From the IMG/VR virus record IMGVR_UViG_3300021378_001388, positions 1 to 64,000 of that record: a DNA stretch of 64,000 nucleotides; one strand, written 5' to 3'. Both the position numbers and the translations under genes were made by a program. This DNA comes from a virus. Under the pieces are notes generated by a model. That model made no database searches. It saw only the letters and a program-made list of their open reading frames with translations, and was not told the DNA's origin. Positions 6,945 through 50,584 of the stretch are shown here, piece after piece (the stretch's first letter is position 1; every line of letters starts with the position of its first letter).

Positions 6945-8384
6945 TTAAGCATATTCTAGTTTACTTCTCTTAACTATACTGAATACTAACAGCATAATAA
7001 CTACACTCATTATACCTAAAAACAGTGGTCGTGTTACTAGTGTGTCTACTGAGTAAATGAACCACATTTGTAGAGATAATGCCTCTATTTTCATTGCAAG
7101 TATAAATGCCATTAATAAGGCAGGTCTACTAAACTTGTACTTCTTCATAAACAATCCTAAACAGGTAGTAATACCTAATATAGCATAGTCTTGCCACCCG
7201 CCTGTGTATTGAACACAAGCCCAGATGATAAATCCCACTAAGAATGGGAAGTAATAAATGTAGGGGACATAAGTTATCTTTGCAATTTGCTTATTAAATG
7301 CTACACAAAGTATACCAGTAATTACTGTCGCCCACATAAATCCAAATGTTAAACTGTCAAAGAACTTTATATCTGCGGCGATTTCTTGTGTTCCCAATTC
7401 GAAACCTAAGTATGCAAATAGTCCTAATAGTACTGCGGCAAAACTTGCTCCTGGTATGCCAAACAATACTGTTGGTATCATACTAGTTGCTTTTTGGGCA
7501 TTGTTGCTTCCTTCTGGACCTACAACGCCTCTCATATTGCCATTGCCAAATTCTTCTTCGGGATGACTTGCTACTGTTGAACCGTAACTCATCCAATCTC
7601 CCATTGCGCCACCTAATCCGGGTAGAAATCCTACAAAGGCGCCAATTGCACCACCACGTAGTGCGTCCCATTTATATTTCCAAACTGCTTTAATACCTTC
7701 CCAAGTCTGATGTGTATGTGTTTCTTCACCTATTGTTGCGATAGAGTTTCCTCTACGCCAACCAGCAATGATTTCAGGAAAAGCAAATAGACCAGCAACT
7801 AGTGGCATAAGTTGTACACCATCACCTAGATAGTCCCACCCCATAGTAAATCTGTCCATATTCGTTTCTGGGTCTGTGCCTATTAATCCTATTCCAATAC
7901 CTACACAGATTGCTATGATACTTCTAAACCAAAACTTATTACTGACAAATCCAACACACGCCAAACTTAACAAGATAAATGCCCACAACTCTGGTATGCC
8001 AAAATACATAATAAGTTTTGCATACTGAGGCAATAGGGCAAAAGTTAATGTACCCCAAAATAATCCGTTTAATGTTGATGTTGTGATTGCGGCTGTTAAT
8101 GCCTCTGTGGCTCTGCCTTGCTGTGCTAATGGATATCCATCTACCATTGTTGCCGCGGCTGAGTTTGCGCCTGGGATACCTAATAGTATTCCTGCATAAG
8201 TATCACCTGTTGTACTTGCGGCGACTACTGCCATACAGAAGATTACACCCATATATGGGTCGAAACCAAAATAACTTATGAAACCAAACATTGCTACGAG
8301 TCCAGTAGTGGCTCCCGCACTTGGTATAAGTCCTATTATTAATCCGTAGAATGTACCTGCTAACAAGGTAAGAATTGCTGACAT
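6945..8384 (-). CDS. tctA: TctA-family carboxylate transporter large membrane subunit
   Basis: A 479-residue polytopic membrane protein with about 11-12 hydrophobic helices. Family hallmarks are the N-terminal GLIIGLIPSAGATTG, the GDTYAGILLGIPGANSAAATMVDG loop and GAFVGFLPGLGGAMGDWMSYG. TctA is the permease of the tripartite tricarboxylate transporter. I start at the ATG at 8384, which has AGGAAA 7 nt upstream. A strong promoter lies at 8505-8533. No recognisable TctB accompanies it, so the phage subunits may pair with a host TctB or the small membrane protein at 4844-5110. Confidence 0.92.
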   Translation of the reverse strand: MSAILTLLAGTFYGLIIGLIPSAGATTGLVAMFGFISYFGFDPYMGVIFCMAVVAASTTGDTYAGILLGIPGANSAAATMVDGYPLAQQGRATEALTAAITTSTLNGLFWGTLTFALLPQYAKLIMYFGIPELWAFILLSLACVGFVSNKFWFRSIIAICVGIGIGLIGTDPETNMDRFTMGWDYLGDGVQLMPLVAGLFAFPEIIAGWRRGNSIATIGEETHTHQTWEGIKAVWKYKWDALRGGAIGAFVGFLPGLGGAMGDWMSYGSTVASHPEEEFGNGNMRGVVGPEGSNNAQKATSMIPTVLFGIPGASFAAVLLGLFAYLGFELGTQEIAADIKFFDSLTFGFMWATVITGILCVAFNKQIAKITYVPYIYYFPFLVGFIIWACVQYTGGWQDYAILGITTCLGLFMKKYKFSRPALLMAFILAMKIEALSLQMWFIYSVDTLVTRPLFLGIMSVVIMLLVFSIVKRSKLEYA

Positions 8385-8504
8385 TGCCAATTTCCTATTA
8401 AATTTATATTAAAATGTTTAAGATTTTGAACATGCCTTAGCAACTCTGCTATACATGATTGAAGTACAGTTCTGTACTAGTTTTATTTATCTTTTTATAC
8501 GAAT

Positions 8505-8533
8505 ATAATATCACAATTGACAAGGGGTGTCAA
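8505..8533 (-). promoter_or_regulatory. Sigma70-like promoter for the tctA operon
   Basis: Minus strand TTGACA (8528-8533), 17-nt spacer, TATTAT (8505-8510). TTGACA-CCCCT-TGTCAA forms an inverted repeat across the -35 box and spacer. An AGATAAATAA stretch about 25 nt downstream could be a weak late motif. Leader to the ATG is about 115 nt; the 155-nt intergenic region shows nothing else I can interpret. Confidence 0.65.
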
Positions 8534-8545
8534 CAGTTTTTTGAA

Positions 8546-8734
8546 TTATTTTTGAATTATTTTTGAATATGCTTCTTCAAAGCCTTCTTCCCATTCTGAT
8601 AATGGGGCTCCGTCACAGCCTGCTCTCCATACACGATTAAAGTATCCTTCGGCGCAAGATAACACTGTCGATTCCGACGTGTTAAAGTGTCCTTTTACCA
8701 TCCAAAACATTCTGTACGCTTCTTTATGTGACAT
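8546..8734 (-). CDS. Small protein of unknown function
   Basis: Sixty-two residues, hydrophilic, with two Cys and several aromatic residues; begins MSHKEAYRMF. It follows the methyltransferase by 43 nt on the same strand, and its end lies next to the -35 box of the tctA promoter. No family recognised. Confidence 0.55.
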   Translation of the reverse strand: MSHKEAYRMFWMVKGHFNTSESTVLSCAEGYFNRVWRAGCDGAPLSEWEEGFEEAYSKIIQK

Positions 8735-8777
8735 ACGTATATTTACTCAATATACGAATCGTTAGCGTAAACATAGG

Positions 8778-9455
8778 TTATTTTTTACGTAATACGAAAT
8801 AAAATCTGTTATTGTCGTCTTGTCGTAATGTTAAGACATCACAGTTAAGATATTGTGCGGCGTTTGAAATAAAGACTGGGTCCCAGTCATAAAAATTAAT
8901 CCATTTAGCCGCTGGACGATTGTGTTGAATTCCTGGATTAACTCTGAAATATAAGAAACCACCTGACTTGACCATGCCTACTACATTTTCAAGTTCACCA
9001 AGTATCTTATCACTACTACCAAAATTGATACTACCTAGACAGATAGCAACATCATATTCGACTTCTGGGTTATAATCTAGTGTATGAACACTGATATCTG
9101 CTCTATCATTATATGGGTCAATACCAGTTAAGTTTTGTATCTTTCCTTTAAACTCGTTATACCCACAACCGATATCAATTACGTTACCTGGATTCATTGC
9201 ATTCACTTCATCAATGATTGCAAGTCCACTATATTTAAATTTCTTTGTTTCTGCTTGCCAGACTTTACCAAAGTAATTTTTCAATACTGCTCTATCGATT
9301 TGTTCTGCTAATGCGTGAACTTCTGTATCATCAATTTGATTCAGTTCAATATCAAATACACCATTTACAACTTGGCAATATGCATGTTTATCCTGTAATA
9401 GACTTGGGTTGTTTTTAAGAATTCTATCTAATTCGTTTAATATTTTTAAGTTCAT
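8778..9455 (-). CDS. SAM-dependent methyltransferase
   Basis: A 225-residue class I methyltransferase. Motif I is VIDIGCGYNEFKG (about residue 91), followed by an acidic strand end (LTGIDPYND), motif IV-like DVAICLGSINFG and the post-IV strand GGFLYFRVNPG. The target cannot be inferred: there is no NPPY or PC motif of DNA methylases, so a small molecule, RNA or protein substrate is more likely. It overlaps the upstream zinc-ribbon gene by ATGA and shares its promoter at 9592-9620. Confidence 0.8.
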   Translation of the reverse strand: MNLKILNELDRILKNNPSLLQDKHAYCQVVNGVFDIELNQIDDTEVHALAEQIDRAVLKNYFGKVWQAETKKFKYSGLAIIDEVNAMNPGNVIDIGCGYNEFKGKIQNLTGIDPYNDRADISVHTLDYNPEVEYDVAICLGSINFGSSDKILGELENVVGMVKSGGFLYFRVNPGIQHNRPAAKWINFYDWDPVFISNAAQYLNCDVLTLRQDDNNRFYFVLRKK

Positions 9456-9583
9456 TTTTGTTCCTTCTTAAAGCCCCAATCAATCAAATACTTATGACTG
9501 CAATTTGGGCACGGTGATGGCATTTGAGTGATAAATCTATATCCACACTGTAGGCATTCCATATCGTGTTCTATTTGTTTCAT
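9452..9583 (-). CDS. 43-residue zinc-ribbon protein
   Basis: A short frame with ATG at 9583 and a TGA that overlaps the methyltransferase ATG by 4 nt. Two CxxC knuckles (CLQC and CPNC) 15 residues apart define a zinc ribbon. The -10 box of a TTGCAT/TATAAT promoter ends only 8 nt before the ATG, so the mRNA would be nearly leaderless. Small ribbons like this bind nucleic acid or the partner protein; translational coupling suggests a partner of the methyltransferase. Confidence 0.75.
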   Translation of the reverse strand: MKQIEHDMECLQCGYRFITQMPSPCPNCSHKYLIDWGFKKEQK

Positions 9584-9591
9584 ATATTAGT

Positions 9592-9620
9592 ATTATAACA
9601 CAAATAATTATATTATGCAA
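9592..9620 (-). promoter_or_regulatory. Sigma70-like promoter for the zinc-ribbon/methyltransferase pair
   Basis: Minus strand TTGCAT (9615-9620), 17 nt, TATAAT (9592-9597). The predicted +1 falls at or just before the ATG at 9583, and no ribosome-binding site is present. Confidence 0.65.
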
Positions 9621-9629
9621 TAGTTATTA

Positions 9630-10307
9630 TCAATATTGTACATCATATGTTATTGCTAAATGTTTACTCGGTTTATTTGGTTGATGAACTTTTATGTTTC
9701 CTACAGTTAGACCTTTGATGTTTGATATCATTCTATCTAGGTTAAATTTATTACCGTGAGGATGAACAAATGTGTCGTAGTCATTGAGATATGATGTGAA
9801 ACCGTAACCTTTGATGAGGTCGTCTAATTCTTTAAAATCACCAGGCTTGTGATGAAAGTCTCCTGCTATTATACAGTTTGTGTTCTGAAGTTTATTCAGT
9901 AAAAATTCAATATCTTCTAGTGTATGTTTATGTATTATAGTATTGCCATCAGGATAACAAGGTAATACACTACAATATACAATCTTGTCGATACCTGTGC
10001 ATAATGCTTTAGAGCCTTGGAAATTATCTCCTGTTGCTCTAACTATATCTTTGCTTGGTAAATTAAACGATATACAAGATTCAAATTTTGATTTACCGTG
10101 AAATCTTGCTATACCTACATATAAAGATTTTCTTGCATTAGGTATACTTCTTTCTAAGTGAATCTCTTTTATATTTGGTCCTGACAATTCGCTCTTAATT
10201 GGCAGTCTTTGAAATAATGCGTAATCTACATCTTTGGTTACTTCTCCAAAATAATCACTTCCGTGATTAAAACAGTCCGTATTATATTGGAGTATACTGT
10301 GTCTCAC
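9630..10307 (-). CDS. Endonuclease/exonuclease/phosphatase-family hydrolase
   Basis: A 225-residue DNase I-like (EEP) protein. Diagnostic motifs appear in order: CIIAGDFHHKPGDF (the GDFN-type metal/base motif), NLDRMISN (LDR-type motif) and a C-terminal SKHLAITYDV (the S-D/K-H motif). EEP enzymes cleave DNA, RNA, nucleotides or phospholipids. The N-terminal metal-binding Glu motif is less obvious. It lies 6 nt after clpS and is probably on the same transcript. A role in host nucleic acid degradation is plausible but unproven. Confidence 0.75.
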   Translation of the reverse strand: MRHSILQYNTDCFNHGSDYFGEVTKDVDYALFQRLPIKSELSGPNIKEIHLERSIPNARKSLYVGIARFHGKSKFESCISFNLPSKDIVRATGDNFQGSKALCTGIDKIVYCSVLPCYPDGNTIIHKHTLEDIEFLLNKLQNTNCIIAGDFHHKPGDFKELDDLIKGYGFTSYLNDYDTFVHPHGNKFNLDRMISNIKGLTVGNIKVHQPNKPSKHLAITYDVQY

Positions 10308-10313
10308 AGTAAA

Positions 10314-10631
10314 TTAAGTCGTTGGCTCTAAAGATACTGATAAAGGATAATTTGCAACTCGGCTTGCTTTGACTGTCTCTTCAACTTTTTGTTCTGCGAT
10401 TTCTAAGTTGTACATTCCTACGATTGCTTTTTCGTCTGTATGTATCTTATGGGCTAAATCAGCCGATGTGTCTTGGTCATGATTAAACAATGCCATAAGT
10501 ATGTCAATAACAAAATCGAACGGAGTCTTATCATCATTGTGCATTACAACATAATACTGCTTCGGTTCGCCTATTGTTAATAACGAATTATCGGACGATT
10601 GTATCTTTTCTTTTTCGTTACTTTCAATCAT
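10314..10631 (-). CDS. clpS: ClpS adaptor protein
   Basis: A 105-residue adaptor. The ClpS core is clear: YYVVMHNDDKTPFDFVIDIL matches the DDxT/P-FVI pocket that recognises N-degrons, and KIHTDEKAIVGMYNLEIAEQKV matches the HxxGxAxxGxYxxEIAExK region, with Gly-to-Glu-type differences. In hosts ClpS brings N-end-rule substrates to ClpAP. The phage also carries clpX and clpP, but no ClpA is seen here. A late-type promoter and the Hsp20 terminator lie just upstream. Confidence 0.92.
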   Translation of the reverse strand: MIESNEKEKIQSSDNSLLTIGEPKQYYVVMHNDDKTPFDFVIDILMALFNHDQDTSADLAHKIHTDEKAIVGMYNLEIAEQKVEETVKASRVANYPLSVSLEPTT

Positions 10632-10655
10632 TATTACTCTCCCTCATATAGTATA

Positions 10656-10662
10656 TATTTAT
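10656..10662 (-). promoter_or_regulatory. Late-type promoter for clpS
   Basis: Minus strand GCATAAATATATAC contains the ATAAATA core 24 nt upstream of the clpS ATG and directly downstream of the Hsp20 terminator, the expected arrangement for a new transcript. Confidence 0.5.
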
Positions 10663-10664
10663 GC

Positions 10665-10694
10665 AAAAAAGAGACAAACATTTCTGTCTGTCTC
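10665..10694 (-). terminator. Factor-independent terminator after hsp20
   Basis: The minus-strand RNA forms a 10-bp stem (GAGACAGACA with TGTTTGTCTC, one G-U pair) closed by a GAAA tetraloop and followed by six T. It lies 42 nt past the hsp20 stop. Confidence 0.85.
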
Positions 10695-10736
10695 CCTTAA
10701 TTATAACTAAATTAGTAGTTAAAGTCAAGTAACTTT

Positions 10737-11162
10737 TTAGTTAATTTTGATAGACTTTGGTTTCTTTTCTTCTGGAACAATGCGTTCTAAAGAAATGTAA
10801 AGCATACCATTTTCCATCTTGGCTTCTACTACCTCAACGTATTCTGCTAATTTCCAAGTTCTTGTAAAACTTCTATTAGCAATGCCCTTGTGTAGATATT
10901 GAATTTCTTCGGACTCTGCTTCTACTTTCTCACCTGTAATAGTAAGAATGCCTTCTTGTACATCGATTTTTAAATCATCTCGTACAAAACCAGCGAGTGC
11001 TAGTGTGATTTGATACTTATCATCACCAGAAGTCTCTACGTTGAAAGGGGGATACCCATTGTTTGTTCCAGTATTGAACGTTTGAAAGTCTTCGACCAAT
11101 CGGTCAAATCCTAGCATTGTTCTGTGGAAGTCGGGCAGGGTTAATGTTGTAACTCTTGTCAT
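10737..11162 (-). CDS. hsp20: Small heat-shock protein Hsp20 (IbpA-like)
   Basis: About 141 residues with an alpha-crystallin domain. The IbpA-type N-terminus FHRTMLGFDRLVEDF is followed by NVETSGDDKYQITLALAGF, KIDVQEGILTITGEK and LAEYVEVVEAKMENGMLYISLERIVPEEKKP. These ATP-independent holdases keep unfolded proteins soluble. I start at the ATG at 11162 because AAGGAG lies 7 nt before it; an upstream ATG would add 8 residues including the SD region. The 100-nt leader folds into hairpins that look like a ROSE RNA thermometer. It ends in a strong terminator. Confidence 0.93.
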   Translation of the reverse strand: MTRVTTLTLPDFHRTMLGFDRLVEDFQTFNTGTNNGYPPFNVETSGDDKYQITLALAGFVRDDLKIDVQEGILTITGEKVEAESEEIQYLHKGIANRSFTRTWKLAEYVEVVEAKMENGMLYISLERIVPEEKKPKSIKIN

Positions 11163-11169
11163 AATTTTT

Positions 11170-11246
11170 CTCCTTATATTAAGCAAGTTATTATTGTTTG
11201 AGACCCTTTCGGCATCTCTGTAATATACTAAACACTATTGCTTAGT
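11170..11246 (-). promoter_or_regulatory. Candidate ROSE-like RNA thermometer in the hsp20 leader
   Basis: In the minus-strand RNA, CUUGCUU (11181-11187) can pair with the Shine-Dalgarno AAGGAG (11170-11175) around a 5-nt loop, with the G of UUGCU bulged. This is the signature of ROSE elements that control proteobacterial hsp20 genes. Two further hairpins precede it: a GAAA-capped stem at 11200-11218 and an 8-bp stem at 11227-11246. Multi-hairpin leaders are usual for ROSE. Seen in sequence; thermosensing is inferred. Confidence 0.6.
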
Positions 11247-11263
11247 ACACTCTTATTTAGTCT

Positions 11264-11506
11264 TTATAAACCAATTTTCTCGGAAAATAACACTAAATCT
11301 TTTGCGGGACCTACATCACAAGGTAAGCCTCCATGTTCTTCTATGTACGCTGTTAGTACTGCTTTGTACCAATTCTGCGAGTTATGATGTGCTAATTTAT
11401 TAAAACGTGCTATTCCATGACTTGTTCCGTCCATAGTTAGCAATGCTCTAGCGGACTCTTTCTGGAGAGTTCTTACATCTAGTGTTTCAATTACATCAAT
11501 TGCCAT
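11264..11506 (-). CDS. Conserved-looking small protein of unknown function
   Basis: An 80-residue soluble protein (MAIDVIETLD start) whose ATG overlaps the S21 stop by one base. It is therefore translationally linked to S21 and IF-3. No motif recognised; the single Cys and two adjacent His (AHHN) do not define a metal site. Confidence 0.6.
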   Translation of the reverse strand: MAIDVIETLDVRTLQKESARALLTMDGTSHGIARFNKLAHHNSQNWYKAVLTAYIEEHGGLPCDVGPAKDLVLFSEKIGL

Positions 11507-11769
11507 TAATACATTCTTTTCTTACGTAATACATTCTTTGCTTGTTCACGCTTTGTGCGTTGTTTGGCAGCCGCTTTCATTTTCTTTCTTTTTTCAGTCG
11601 GTTTAATAAATGCTTGACGTTCTCTAACTTCCTGAACTGTTCCTGCATCTGAGCATTTTCTCTTCCAAAGTCTTAATCCTCTTTCGAAGTTGTCGTGCTG
11701 TATTTCTACATGAGTTCCTATTGGTCTTTCTCTGCCTGTAACTTTCTTTTTTGGTGTAAATTTAGCCAT
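11506..11769 (-). CDS. rpsU: Ribosomal protein bS21-like
   Basis: An 87-residue very basic protein. The segment NFERGLRLWKRKCSDAG followed by EVRERQAFIKPTEKRK is the bS21 core, and the tail is rich in Lys/Arg. bS21 sits near the anti-Shine-Dalgarno region of the 30S subunit and affects mRNA selection. It overlaps infC by 8 nt, giving a translation-initiation pair. Phage bS21 proteins are thought to enter host ribosomes and favour phage mRNAs; that role is inferred here. Confidence 0.88.
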   Translation of the reverse strand: MAKFTPKKKVTGRERPIGTHVEIQHDNFERGLRLWKRKCSDAGTVQEVRERQAFIKPTEKRKKMKAAAKQRTKREQAKNVLRKKRMY

Positions 11770-12301
11770 CTTTGTATAGTAGTCCTATTATTCTATTGCC
11801 GTTTAATGCTAAGTTTGAATCCCATTTAAAGTTATCTAAATGTGTTTCAATCGCTTCTTTGAAATGATTAAATACTTCTGACCTATTCGCATTCTCTCTT
11901 CCACGCATCTGAATAGTTATCTTCACTTTTGCACCTTTTTCTAAAAAATCTTGGGCACGATTTAATTTTATAAGTAAATCATGCTCACATATATTAGGTT
12001 TAAACTTTATTTCTTTTGTATCTATCTTTGCCGCTCTGGCTTTTTTAGCCATTTCCTTTTCGTTCTTCTGTAGTTCATATTTATACTTATTTAACTCAAT
12101 GATTCTGGCAACAGGCGGTTCTGCTTTTTCAACAACTAGAACTAAGTCTAAGTTTTCTGCTTTAGCCATATCTAGTGCTTCTTTTTTGCTCATTACTCCT
12201 AATTGGACTCTATCTGGCCCTACTACTCGTAATGTATCAAATTTAATTTGATGGTTAGATACAATCATAGTCTTTTGATTGTTCTTGTAAATTTTACCCA
12301 T
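11762..12301 (-). CDS. infC: Translation initiation factor IF-3
   Basis: A 179-residue protein of near-normal IF-3 length with both domains. N-terminal: VRLxG-like [21 protein letters not shown] and the [15 protein letters not shown] strand. Linker rich in Lys. C-terminal: [42 protein letters not shown], which carries the 30S-binding loop. IF-3 controls start-codon choice and subunit dissociation. It overlaps clpX upstream by 8 nt and rpsU downstream by 8 nt. A phage-borne IF-3 is uncommon and suggests redirection of initiation, including leaderless or weak-SD messages. Confidence 0.93.
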
Positions 12302-13547
12302 CTATACCTTGTTCTGCTTTTTTATCATCTTCTGCATACACTAATATAGGGGTATCCACTTCTGCATCAATAAATTCTTTAGTAATAATAACTTTAACTA
12401 AACCTTCTTCTGCCAATTTTGGTAGAGTGAATTGTAATTTCAATAATGATTTTTCTATTACACTTCGTAGTCCTCTTGCACCCGTTGTATCTTCGTGTGC
12501 AATTTTGGCTATTGCGGACAATGTGTCATCGCCCATTTCTAGTTCTACGCCATCTAATGAAAATAACTTTTTGAACTGTGCAACTATACTGTTCTTTGGT
12601 TCAACTAGAATTCTAACTAGTTCTGATTGTGTTAATTCATCTAATCCTACGACTATTGGAAATCTACCCATAAATTCTGGAATCAATCCATATTTAAGAA
12701 GGTCCTGTGTTTTAATATGTTCTCTAGTATTACACGCAGAAGTTTCTTTTTGTTTAGCACCAAACCCAATCCCAGGACTTGTGTTAACTCTGTTCTCTAC
12801 AATCTTGTCAATGCCTACGAATGCACCGCCAACAATGAATAGAATCTTTCTAGTGTCTACTTCAATCATTTCTTGGTTTGGATGTTTACGACCCCCGCCA
12901 GGTGGGACACGAACAACTGTTCCTTCAACGATTTTAAGTAGTGCTTGTTGTACACCTTCACCAGAAACGTCTTTTGTGATTGATAAGTTTTCACCTTTTT
13001 TGGCTTTCTTATCAATTTCATCAATGTAAACAATGCCACGTTCGGCTTTTTCAACATCAAAATCTGCTGAAATAAGTAATCGTTGAACAACATTCTCTAC
13101 ATCTTCACCAACATAACCACTTTCAGTTAATGTAGTTGCATCAATTTGAGCAAACGGAACATCAAGGAACTTAGCAATAGTTTTACCTATCAACGTTTTA
13201 CCTGTGCCACTAGGACCGAAACACAAGATATTAGATTTATCTAATTCGATATCAGTGTCGGTAGAATTGACACGTTTATAATGATTATATACTGCGACTG
13301 CAATTACTTCTTTTGCTTCGTTTTGACCAATAACGTGATTATCCAAATACTCTTTAATTTCTTCTGGAGTAACTGTTGTAGTATCGTAATCAGGATTATC
13401 TACTTTTGATTTTACTTCGTGGATAATGTCATGGCATAAATCAATACACTCATTACAAATGTATTGATTTGGTCCTGCAATTAATGTTTTAATTTCGTTC
13501 TTTGGTTTTCCACAAAATGAACATTTAAACTCTTTATTTTCTGCCAA
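12294..13547 (-). CDS. clpX: ClpX, ATPase subunit of the ClpXP protease
   Basis: A 417-residue full-length ClpX. The N-terminal zinc-binding domain has CSFCGKPK and CNECIDLC. Walker A is [15 protein letters not shown], Walker B is [10 protein letters not shown], the pore-1 loop region GYVGEDVEN is intact, and the IGF loop for ClpP docking appears as PGIGFGAKQ in the usual place. Sensor-2 Arg lies in TTGARGLRS. It unfolds substrates and feeds them to ClpP; the phage encodes its own ClpP at 40702. It lies 17 nt after the shifted-frame ORF of the membrane coiled-coil gene. Confidence 0.96.
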
Positions 13548-13564
13548 TATTATACCTTTTGCCT

Positions 13565-13821
13565 TTATTTAATATTCGTATCAACGTCATCTAACCAACC
13601 ATCTCGCTTGAATACTTCAGTATTTATCTTACGTTGAACTTCTTCAGGAGTAATTATTTCTTCGACTTCTTCGTCAATCTCGGCATCATCTAAGACAACA
13701 CCTATATTGTCGTCAATTTCTTCGGGTTCCTCAGATGTTGCGATATCTATTACTTCATCATTAGTAATATTATCGCTTATTTTCGGTGAAATGTCAAGTG
13801 ATTTCTTTACTTTTTTTTTTT
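13565..13821 (-). other. -1 frameshift site and C-terminal extension of the membrane coiled-coil protein
   Basis: The upstream gene ends TTC AAA AAA AAA AAG TAA, so an A AAA AAG slippery heptamer, the same as in E. coli dnaX, lies directly before its stop. In the -1 frame translation continues for 81 codons to TAA at 13565. The extension is strongly acidic (many Asp/Glu) and ends in a KRDGWLDDVD-like tail. This frame has no ATG, GTG or TTG start of its own, and it fills the whole gap up to clpX. Either programmed frameshifting or a homopolymer length error (11 A) explains it. Confidence 0.7.
13620..13627 (-). promoter_or_regulatory. Possible late promoter before clpX
   Basis: AGATAAATACTG on the minus strand matches the late core of this genome, 73 nt upstream of clpX. 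It lies inside the -1 frame extension, so chance occurrence in coding sequence is possible. Confidence 0.35.
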
Positions 13822-15297
13822 GAAAGAAAATTTGTCGAATATTTCTTCTTGTCTGCCACCATTATTTCTGTTTTGAAAACTATAGTTTGCCGCAATCAAT
13901 AGTAATACTGCTAATGGGTCAAACACAAAAATGAATACAATGATAAGCCATCTAACTGCTTCATCGATTGTATCGTTGTCTGTGTTATCATAGACCATTT
14001 CTGCGATGTACTTGATAGGTCCTATCTCTGTTGCAATTGCTCTAATCTCACGTTCTAGTTCAAACTTCTGGTCAATCAAAACATCAATAGCATCATCATT
14101 AGCATTTATCGTTAATTGTAGTGCATCTACTTCTGCTGAGTTATCAACCTGTGATACATTTAACAATTCATTTCTTAGTCTATCAAGGATAATTAAAGAA
14201 CCCGCAACTTCTCTATCTGCTTTCTCACGCAATCTTTTGATTTCTTCTCTAGCGGAAGATATTACAGGAGACTCTATACCTCTTGCATCTTCAATTTTCA
14301 CTAGTAATTCCATCTTACGTTCATTTACTGATTGAGTATCTTCACTTCTTAACTTCGTTACCATATTGCTAAGTCTAATACGCTCTTGTTTGTATTGATT
14401 TTCAAAGTCTTTACGAACTTCTGCAATCTTCATTCCTAGTTCAGTTAACTTTACTGCATTTGCTTCATTCCATTCTTTAAGAACTTCTGCATTTCTCCAG
14501 TAACCCCAAGGAATACCAACTACTTGTTGTGCTTTCTTCAAGTCTTCTTGTGTACCAGATTTTGACATCTCTTTAAATGTAGAAATGTCTGATTTGATTT
14601 TGTTAATTTGGTCCTGAAATGGTGCTACTGCATAATCATAACTTGTTGTATCTTTGCCGACATTAGTAATATCATTTTCATACTTCTTGGCTTGTTCTTC
14701 TAGTTTATCAAGTTCTTTATCTAGGCTATCCATTTGATTTAAATATGGTGCAACCTTATCATCATCTTTTGATAGTTCAGTAGTGATGATTACATTCTGT
14801 TCATCGATAGAAGGTTGAATACGAACCATAACATTGTCCATTCTATTTTCTTCTGTATCGATTTGGTCTTGTACTTTTGAAGTATCTGTTTCACCTTCGG
14901 AATCTAATTTTATAATCTTGTTTTCAAGTCTATTATTTGTGCTTTCATATCTAGCCATATCTTGTACGACACGTTCAATACGGGCAGTATTTTCTTCACT
15001 GTCTGCCGCTTGTTCTAAATGTGCTTTTGATAGAAAACCAAAAATACCCATTGAAGTAATAAGCATTAAGATTACTACCGCAATTGTAAGATATGATTTT
15101 AAAAGAAATGGCGCCCTTTTCCAGTTTCTATAAACCCAAGATGCTGAAACTAATTTGCCCACTTCTAATGCTACTGCCATAATGGCAACTGAAACTGCTG
15201 ATGCAGTAAAGATAGCCATAAGACCCGCAACTGAAAACCAAGCGGCAATTGCCGCAATTGTGATGGCGGTTATAAATGTAATTATTGGAAATAACAT
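13807..15297 (-). CDS. Membrane-anchored coiled-coil protein
   Basis: A 496-residue protein in the zero frame, or 577 residues if the -1 frame is read. The N-terminus has three hydrophobic helices (about residues 1-20, 25-48 and 66-90). A long charged coiled-coil region rich in Glu/Lys/Asp follows (about 95-440), then a C-terminal helix (WLIIVFIFVFDPLAVLLLIAA, about 450-470). The topology resembles large envelope-tethered phage proteins of the DUF4407 type, but I cannot confirm a family. Expression could come from the late motif at 15363-15370, with a hairpin-terminator in the leader. Confidence 0.75.
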   Translation of the reverse strand: MLFPIITFITAITIAAIAAWFSVAGLMAIFTASAVSVAIMAVALEVGKLVSASWVYRNWKRAPFLLKSYLTIAVVILMLITSMGIFGFLSKAHLEQAADSEENTARIERVVQDMARYESTNNRLENKIIKLDSEGETDTSKVQDQIDTEENRMDNVMVRIQPSIDEQNVIITTELSKDDDKVAPYLNQMDSLDKELDKLEEQAKKYENDITNVGKDTTSYDYAVAPFQDQINKIKSDISTFKEMSKSGTQEDLKKAQQVVGIPWGYWRNAEVLKEWNEANAVKLTELGMKIAEVRKDFENQYKQERIRLSNMVTKLRSEDTQSVNERKMELLVKIEDARGIESPVISSAREEIKRLREKADREVAGSLIILDRLRNELLNVSQVDNSAEVDALQLTINANDDAIDVLIDQKFELEREIRAIATEIGPIKYIAEMVYDNTDNDTIDEAVRWLIIVFIFVFDPLAVLLLIAANYSFQNRNNGGRQEEIFDKFSFKKKK

Positions 15298-15325
15298 AAT
15301 AAATACCTCCTCTATAATGTAATAA

Positions 15326-15349
15326 AAAAGCCTCTAAGAAGAGGCTTTT
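15326..15349 (-). terminator. Factor-independent terminator after the glycine-zipper gene
   Basis: Ten-bp perfect stem AAAAGCCTCT/AGAGGCTTTT with a 4-nt loop, followed on the minus strand by six T. The stem works in both directions, but minus-strand genes flank it on both sides. Confidence 0.85.
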
Positions 15350-15362
15350 GTTTCTCTCATAT

Positions 15363-15370
15363 GTATTTAT
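15363..15370 (-). promoter_or_regulatory. Late promoter motif before the coiled-coil gene
   Basis: Minus strand CATAAATACATATGAG carries the ATAAATAC core. It lies upstream of the terminator at 15326-15349, so a transcript starting here would carry the hairpin and U-run almost at its 5' end. Confidence 0.5.
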
Positions 15371-15416
15371 GAGATATTATAGCGAAATTGTGTTATCAGT
15401 TATAATAAGTGTGTAC

Positions 15417-15947
15417 TTAATTCAACGATAACGACATTCTTACTGGCACAGTTGACCCTACTGAGTACTGTCTGTCAGTTCTAAAAGTTGGTGTAAAATC
15501 ATCAAATCCATCACCTAACTCTATTGCTACTGTTGTTGAATATCCAGTCACTACTTCGGTTACTGCTCTTACATAAGTAATCTCACACTGTTCTACTTGT
15601 TTGTAACCTACGATTACTTTTTGACCACCGTGGTTCTCGCCTGCTTTCGCACCAAGAATAGCACCGAAGATAGTAGCGGCATCTTTACCAGAACCTTTAC
15701 CTACTTGATTGCCTAGAACCCCACCGATGATAGCACCAGCAATTGCATCACCGGCTGTGCCTTTAGTGTTGCCATAGACAGGAACTTCTACGATGTTACA
15801 AGTCTTTTCTGGAACTTCTCTTATTACATCTTTTACGATAGCAGTACTTGATAAAACTGTACCGTCTATTGAAACACTTGTGCCTGCTGACACATTTGTA
15901 GCAAGTAAACTTAGTCCTAATGTTACTATTGTCAATATATATTTCAT
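15417..15947 (-). CDS. Glycine-zipper 2TM envelope protein
   Basis: A 176-residue exported protein. I start at the ATG at 15947 because AAAGGAG lies 7 nt upstream and a signal peptide follows directly (MKYILTIVTLGLSLLATNVSAG). The centre contains a glycine-zipper 2TM domain (DAIAGAIIGGVLGNQVG, then AATIFGAILGAKAG). This fold is common in SlyB/17-kDa-antigen-type outer membrane proteins. The C-terminus has alternating beta strands. A strong promoter precedes it and a terminator follows, so it is a stand-alone unit. A role in envelope stability or superinfection exclusion is speculative. Confidence 0.82.
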   Translation of the reverse strand: MKYILTIVTLGLSLLATNVSAGTSVSIDGTVLSSTAIVKDVIREVPEKTCNIVEVPVYGNTKGTAGDAIAGAIIGGVLGNQVGKGSGKDAATIFGAILGAKAGENHGGQKVIVGYKQVEQCEITYVRAVTEVVTGYSTTVAIELGDGFDDFTPTFRTDRQYSVGSTVPVRMSLSLN

Positions 15948-15978
15948 TTTTAACTCCTTTAGTTGTTGATTCTTAATT

Positions 15979-16006
15979 ATTATAGCATAAAACCGATTTT
16001 TGTCAA
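15979..16006 (-). promoter_or_regulatory. Strong sigma70-like promoter for the glycine-zipper gene
   Basis: Minus strand AAAAAC followed by TTGACA (16001-16006), a 16-nt spacer and TATAAT (15979-15984). Both hexamers match consensus. It overlaps the last codons of the GNAT gene. Leader about 25 nt with AAAGGAG. Confidence 0.75.
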
Positions 16007-16509
16007 GTTTTTGCTGTTTTTTTAAGTTTATATTCAAAATTTTGTGAAGAATCGTTAATTTTAAGTAATTTTGCACCATTTCTAATGTGAAAATGTGTTG
16101 CCATAGGTGTTAAAGGCGACAATGTGACTACTTTTCTGATATTCGTATTTACAGTGAGATAATCTTTCAGTTTCGCCATAATCTCTTTACCAGCACCTCT
16201 CTTGCGACTCCAAACAGTATATGCCACTGCTGTATTGAAATCTTCTTTAAGATGTGCATTTTGACTTATTAAGTCTAATTCTCGTACACTTTGTGGTACA
16301 TCGTTACAATATGCTACACAAATAACACCTTCAATGTTATCTTCATATTTCAGTCCGTATATCTTACGACTGTAACTAGTTCTAAATTCTAAATCTAATT
16401 CTGGCCTAACTGGGTCTTCACTGACATCAATATCTGTTAGTTCTACAAGTTCAGTTCCCTTAACCCAATGAAAAAAGTCATCAAGTCGTGTCTTAAATGT
16501 TTTCATCAA
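16003..16509 (-). CDS. GNAT-family acetyltransferase
   Basis: A 168-residue protein. The GNAT core is visible: IEGVICVAYCNDVP strand pair, AVAYTVWSRKRGAGKEIMAKLKDYL containing the acetyl-CoA pyrophosphate loop RKRGAG, and the C-terminal THFHIRNGAKLL strand/helix. The acceptor is unknown; protein N-termini, ribosomal proteins or antibiotics are all options. It follows ferredoxin by 12 nt and is in the same run of small genes. Confidence 0.75.
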   Translation of the reverse strand: MMKTFKTRLDDFFHWVKGTELVELTDIDVSEDPVRPELDLEFRTSYSRKIYGLKYEDNIEGVICVAYCNDVPQSVRELDLISQNAHLKEDFNTAVAYTVWSRKRGAGKEIMAKLKDYLTVNTNIRKVVTLSPLTPMATHFHIRNGAKLLKINDSSQNFEYKLKKTAKT

Positions 16510-16521
16510 TATATTATTCCT

Positions 16522-16866
16522 CTACTCTTTATCAAACTGGTCTAACAATGGGGTTTTATCTTCTGTGTATCCTTCTTTAGGATTATATTTGTCTGCATCT
16601 GGCAACGGGTCTATCTGCTCAACGATAACTGGCCATATCTGTGACATCTTGTCATTTATATCTAAAAGTCTCTGTGTAAATTTTGGATGATTATCGGCTA
16701 TGATTGCTTCTGCAGGACATTCTGGTTCACAAACTCCACAGTCAATACATTCATCTGGATTAATAACCAACATATTTTCACCTTCATAGAAACAATCAAC
16801 CGGACAAACCTCTACACAATCTGTATACTTACATTTTATACAATCTTGGGTTACTACATATGCCAT
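16522..16866 (-). CDS. fdxA: 7Fe-8S ferredoxin, FdxA type
   Basis: A 114-residue ferredoxin. The N-terminal half holds the cluster ligands: Cys9, Cys12, Cys17, Cys21 with CPVDC, then [12 protein letters not shown]. The arrangement with Cys17 replacing the classical third position and the C-terminal ~40-residue extension ([18 protein letters not shown]) match the FdxA 3Fe-4S/4Fe-4S type of proteobacteria. Very host-like, so recent transfer is likely. It may supply electrons to phage-encoded redox enzymes such as the radical SAM protein; that link is inferred. Confidence 0.93.
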
Positions 16867-50556: not shown

Positions 50557-50584
50557 ATTATAGCACAGATATGATATCTGTCAA
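50557..50584 (-). promoter_or_regulatory. Consensus sigma70-like promoter with operator-like dyad
   Basis: Minus strand AAAAACTTGACA (-35 at 50579-50584), 16 nt, TATAAT (50557-50562). ACAGATA-TCA-TATCTGT is a 7-bp inverted repeat starting inside the -35 box. Confidence 0.78.

Follow-up and report, generated by a model that had tools for sequence, protein, structure and literature searches.

The dnaX gene of Escherichia coli makes its tau and gamma products by -1 ribosomal frameshifting on A_AAA_AAG, the shift yielding the shorter product with the help of a Shine-Dalgarno-like element upstream and a stem-loop downstream of the slippery sequence. Transcriptional slippage is exemplified by the A9 run of Thermus thermophilus dnaX and by the poly(A) genes of endosymbionts. 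When stimulators are present, few heptamers in E. coli are more prone to frameshifting than A_AAA_AAG (PMC4066793), runs of about nine A or T are slippage-prone in many bacteria (PMC1088944), and 12-50% of transcripts from long poly(A) runs in endosymbionts are corrected (PMC5009743). In phages, frameshifting (gpG/gpGT, gene 10 of T7 and T3, Ig-like extensions) provides a longer second form with an extra C-terminal part, and related phages may encode such an extension fused in frame.

The locus analysed here lies on the minus strand of a 64,000-nucleotide stretch of viral DNA (the window; positions 1 to 64,000 of IMG/VR record IMGVR_UViG_3300021378_001388), and resembles each of these systems in part. 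As in E. coli dnaX, an in-phase A_AAA_AAG is present and two C-terminal forms of one gene product are expected; in contrast to dnaX, the product of the shift would be the longer one, and a search for the two stimulators found neither. As in the Thermus and endosymbiont cases, a run lies within coding sequence, long runs being otherwise rare there, and transcripts that have slipped would bring the conserved frame downstream back into reading; here, though, the gene encodes a phage membrane protein and slippage is predicted from sequence. As with the phage extensions, the second form would be the longer one and the extension is fused in frame in related phages, but the product is an envelope coiled-coil protein encoded beside clpX rather than a tail chaperone or a coat protein. 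No report of this frameshift in pelagiphages was found in the literature. We estimate a probability of about 0.8 that the gene gives rise to two protein forms through slippage at an A9-A11 run.

The probable slip site in the window and its close relatives

The zero-frame short form of the membrane coiled-coil gene, delimited by its open reading frame and by homologues, comprises 496 codons (13807..15297, minus strand) and ends TTC AAA AAA AAA AAG TAA. The A11 run (13811..13821) contains an in-phase A_AAA_AAA (13819-13813), overlaps an in-phase A_AAA_AAG (13810..13816) and is directly followed by the zero-frame stop TAA (13807..13809). The -1 frame continues for 81 codons and a stop (13565..13810), encodes an acidic tail and terminates 17 bases short of the TTG start, at 13547, of clpX, the next gene downstream (12294..13547). 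ATG, GTG, TTG and CTG codons are all absent from the tail of the window, and none is shared throughout the clade. An earlier note on this DNA had described this gene end and its acidic 81-codon -1 frame lacking a start codon of its own, with coordinates and sizes that proved correct, and had predicted a 577-residue product beside the 496-residue form, a size that likewise agrees with 496+81.

Scans of viral contigs yielded seven close relatives with 82-93% identity (L002-L007 and L128, the latter the same as L132/L133); all are metagenome assemblies, and since L002 and L003 are alike around the site, the set, window included, amounts to about seven independent sequences. A search for further clade members with a relaxed DNA pattern returned a sole match, L156, which proved to be an unrelated stretch. 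In all eight contigs the zero-frame product is exactly 496 codons long and ends at an A-run followed by TAA at the identical codon position, beyond which the -1 frame stays open for 81-106 codons. The run and its last base read A11G in four contigs including the window, A11T in three and A9G in one (L005). The dnaX-type heptamer, which had been named as the signal, is thus in phase in the window and in five of the eight contigs overall, but gives way to A_AAA_AAT in L002, L003 and L007, and in L005 it sits on a run of only nine. It is therefore not the conserved part of the site; all eight contigs share instead the A9-A11 run and an in-phase A_AAA_AAA.

This variation also bears on sequencing error, which had been put forward as the main alternative. 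Runs of 11 bases are a classic spot for indel errors, and the fusion of the tail in distant relatives might suggest that the true genomes carry one continuous frame. Against this, eight contigs from different samples are concordant, each being off the continuous frame by the same single base, and they are so across three different sequences at the site, one of which, A9, is of a length that sequencing handles reliably. As run lengths and last bases differ between contigs, a shared error is very unlikely. A similar judgement applies to phase variation, in which replication slippage would change the run length so that individual genomes switch between the short and the long form. Long A-runs are hypermutable and a contingency locus would look alike, but all eight contigs are in one phase (A11 or A9) with neither A10 nor A12 among them, and we regard this reading as highly improbable.

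Composition has to be taken into account in weighing the site. In-frame A_AAA_AAG is ordinary in this genome, with 11 cases in 84 ORFs, so the heptamer by itself is weak evidence. The A11 run is the sole run of at least nine A or T within the 64.9-kb record, and in seven of the eight related contigs the run at the site is likewise the only one, with one other A9 in a total of 396 kb. A Markov model of composition predicts about 4.5 such runs per 64 kb; the A11 as such is thus not improbable, and it is the rarity of long runs elsewhere that departs from expectation, as though they were avoided in these genomes.

The extension, its fused relatives and the membrane protein

The tail behaves as protein-coding sequence in the -1 frame. 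Its median dN/dS is 0.26 in that frame as compared with 0.87 and 1.74 in the other two, the gene body having 0.12, and the other two frames each contain 6-18 stops. Alignment gaps in the tail are whole codons only, although its length ranges from 81 to 106 residues, and the ...NT...GWLD end is conserved. When neutral evolution was simulated at 0.2-0.6 substitutions per site, only about 1-7% of tails acquired no stop. In addition, 13 distant relatives with 44-58% identity carry the tail fused in frame, with the landmarks LDx6D[NT] and then GWLD, and with clpX as the next gene. Taken together, the purifying selection seen in the -1 frame and the homology with fused tails indicate that the tail is a real protein-coding extension. 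The homologue comparison that had been proposed as a check was thus positive both ways, the extension being fused in the 13 distant relatives and separated by the A-run in all close ones. Because the distant relatives carry a tail with the same landmarks in frame 0, again followed by clpX, the fused arrangement most likely represents the ancestral state, and the frame break a derived one limited to one clade of marine phages, which would have placed an ancestral C-terminus behind a slip site.

An independent start for the tail, at a non-standard codon such as ATT, was also considered. ATT codons are found in the tail, at codon 15 in all contigs, and a promoter motif (see below) lies just upstream of that codon. 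Codon 15, however, falls at or before the expected transcription start, leaving no room for a leader with a ribosome-binding site, and in the fused relatives the tail is plainly the C-terminus of the membrane protein; separate translation is thus extremely unlikely.

Structure models of the protein, of low confidence (pTM 0.31-0.37), place hydrophobic segments at the N- and C-terminal ends of a long coiled coil. Weak peptidoglycan-binding matches occur mid-protein in some distant relatives, and neither the membrane protein nor the tail could be assigned a function from Pfam, PHROGs or the PDB, a weak tetraspanin-like match being below the cut-off. The protein would appear to sit in the inner membrane, its coiled coil in the periplasm and its C-terminus in the cytoplasm, in which case slippage would decide which copies carry the acidic tail. 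Among isolates, the closest one carrying a related membrane protein is Pelagibacter phage Mosig EXVC030M, where the match covers 43% of the query; the homologue in that phage is another gene, which is shorter and lacks this tail.

Genes around the site (6945-16866, minus strand) encode ClpX, IF-3, Hsp20, ClpS, a TctA transporter component, a ferredoxin and a glycine-zipper protein resembling the 17-kDa antigen. The window also has genes of the UvsX, DnaB-like helicase and NrdA types and many that are AMG-like, and within it no tRNA or known RNA family was detected. A link between the tail and ClpX is suggested by gene order alone, which is identical in the close and distant relatives checked.

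Ribosome or RNA polymerase

Slippage on the A-run is the only simple route by which the tail could be reached, and we infer it as the best explanation of the locus. Most translation would stop at the TAA right behind the run, giving the 496-residue form. In a fraction of events slippage would occur at the A9-A11 run, either through RNA polymerase adding one A or dropping two, or through the ribosome moving back one base on A_AAA_AA(A/G). Both routes would here lead to an identical 577-residue product, which gains the acidic and probably cytoplasmic C-terminal tail. The earlier reading of a programmed frameshift is therefore upheld as regards the conserved -1-frame extension, while its attribution to a ribosomal signal of the dnaX type is not established.

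The sequences offer features of both mechanisms. A slippery heptamer of the form X_XXY_YYZ is in phase, as ribosomal frameshifting would require. For transcriptional slippage, a run of about nine or more lies at the frame junction throughout (A11 in 7/8, A9 in 1/8), with long runs otherwise rare, as described above. The classical stimulators of dnaX were sought in vain: AGG, GGA and GAG, as marks of a Shine-Dalgarno-like element, are missing from codons 487-493, within about 20 nt upstream, in all seven sequences examined, and directly downstream there is no conserved stem-loop, the 45 nt in question folding at 0 to -3.5 kcal/mol. A hairpin further downstream (z = -3.7 in the window) was rejected as a stimulator; it starts about 35 nt past the slip site, displays no compensatory changes and has lost its outer pairs in two sequences, and the promoter motif offers a better account of why its sequence is conserved. 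An AU-rich hairpin at 13740-13776 (minus strand) lies near the expected 5' end of a clpX transcript, its inner stem being kept in 7/7 sequences and its outer pairs lost in two.

As the features shared by the clade are the A9-A11 run and the in-phase A_AAA_AAA, with the last base varying, ribosomal frameshifting is no more likely than polymerase slippage. We lean slightly towards RNA polymerase as the slipping machine, and consider that the ribosome has somewhat less than an even chance of being responsible. The slippage rates established for E. coli need not hold in the host of this phage. Since the clade varies both in the length of the run (A9, A11) and in its last base (G, T), the two mechanisms could be distinguished by test.

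The promoter motif in the extension

A feature missed by the earlier note is a sigma70-type promoter motif within the coding sequence of the tail, TTGACA-17 nt-GATAAT (13769..13797, minus strand), which matches the sigma70 consensus at 11/12 positions and is likely, as a candidate, to be the promoter of clpX. TTGAC(A/T)-17-GATA(A/C)T recurs at exactly this spacing in 20/20 sequences compared (19 plus L007), which come from widely differing phages, the intervening residues varying. Synonymous variation in the first codons of the tail is 0.114, the lowest of the gene (0.18-0.69 elsewhere), and the codon choice at the motif has by itself a P of about 0.01-0.06 per sequence, the sequences not being mutually independent. 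The LDx6DN pattern, initially read as a conserved protein motif, could not be upheld as such, codon choice showing it to be at least partly the footprint of the promoter. Near-consensus sites of this type number nine on the window's coding strand and zero on the opposite one, the expected number being 0.9; they are probably phage promoters of the host-sigma70 type. The nine minus-strand sites (TTGAC-16/18-[TG]A[TA]AAT) have their first bases at 50584, 45944, 40698, 27858, 17086, 16006, 13797, 10728 and 4174, and several of them are located just upstream of gene starts.

The stretch immediately 5' of the -35 box (13798..13821, minus strand) is A-rich and overlaps the slip site; the distance from the end of the A-run to TTGACA is exactly 13 nt in 8/8 contigs. 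A position 13 nt upstream of a -35 box is UP-element territory, so that the A-richness may serve two purposes, or may be kept for the promoter instead of for slippage. Taken to its limit, this would mean that the stretch is retained as a putative UP element, that the frame break is incidental and that the short protein alone matters. The invariant promoter motif, the low synonymous variation at the start of the tail, the constant end point of the run and the A-rich hinge of the fused relatives (A fraction upstream of the -35 box 0.40-0.63, as against 0.57-0.63 in the clade) all agree with such a role. It leaves unexplained, however, the open frames, the whole-codon gaps and the low dN/dS in the rest of the tail, as well as the shared NT...GWLD end, and promoter and slippage roles can coexist; we therefore consider it quite unlikely that the promoter accounts for the site to the exclusion of slippage.

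A combined role is conceivable, if still improbable: the A-run might act both as the slip site that sets the ratio of short to long form and as an UP element, thereby coupling the form of the envelope protein to clpX expression. Where the tail is fused, slipping by -1 on the lysine hinge would bring translation to the TGA within TTGACA and so yield a short form; the two forms might then be ancestral, this clade having exchanged the default frame. One fused relative, L134, offers an A9 in frame at the hinge of the tail, immediately followed by CTTGACA, and a slip there would end at that TGA.

The LDx6DN case illustrates that an intragenic promoter can leave its footprint as a conserved peptide pattern, and calls for caution where such motifs are read as protein function. 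The tail itself would escape standard annotation of these genomes. Two-form expression through slippage on the A-run would make this family a natural experiment, in which the same tail is fused to the membrane protein in distant phages and stands behind a slip site in one clade.
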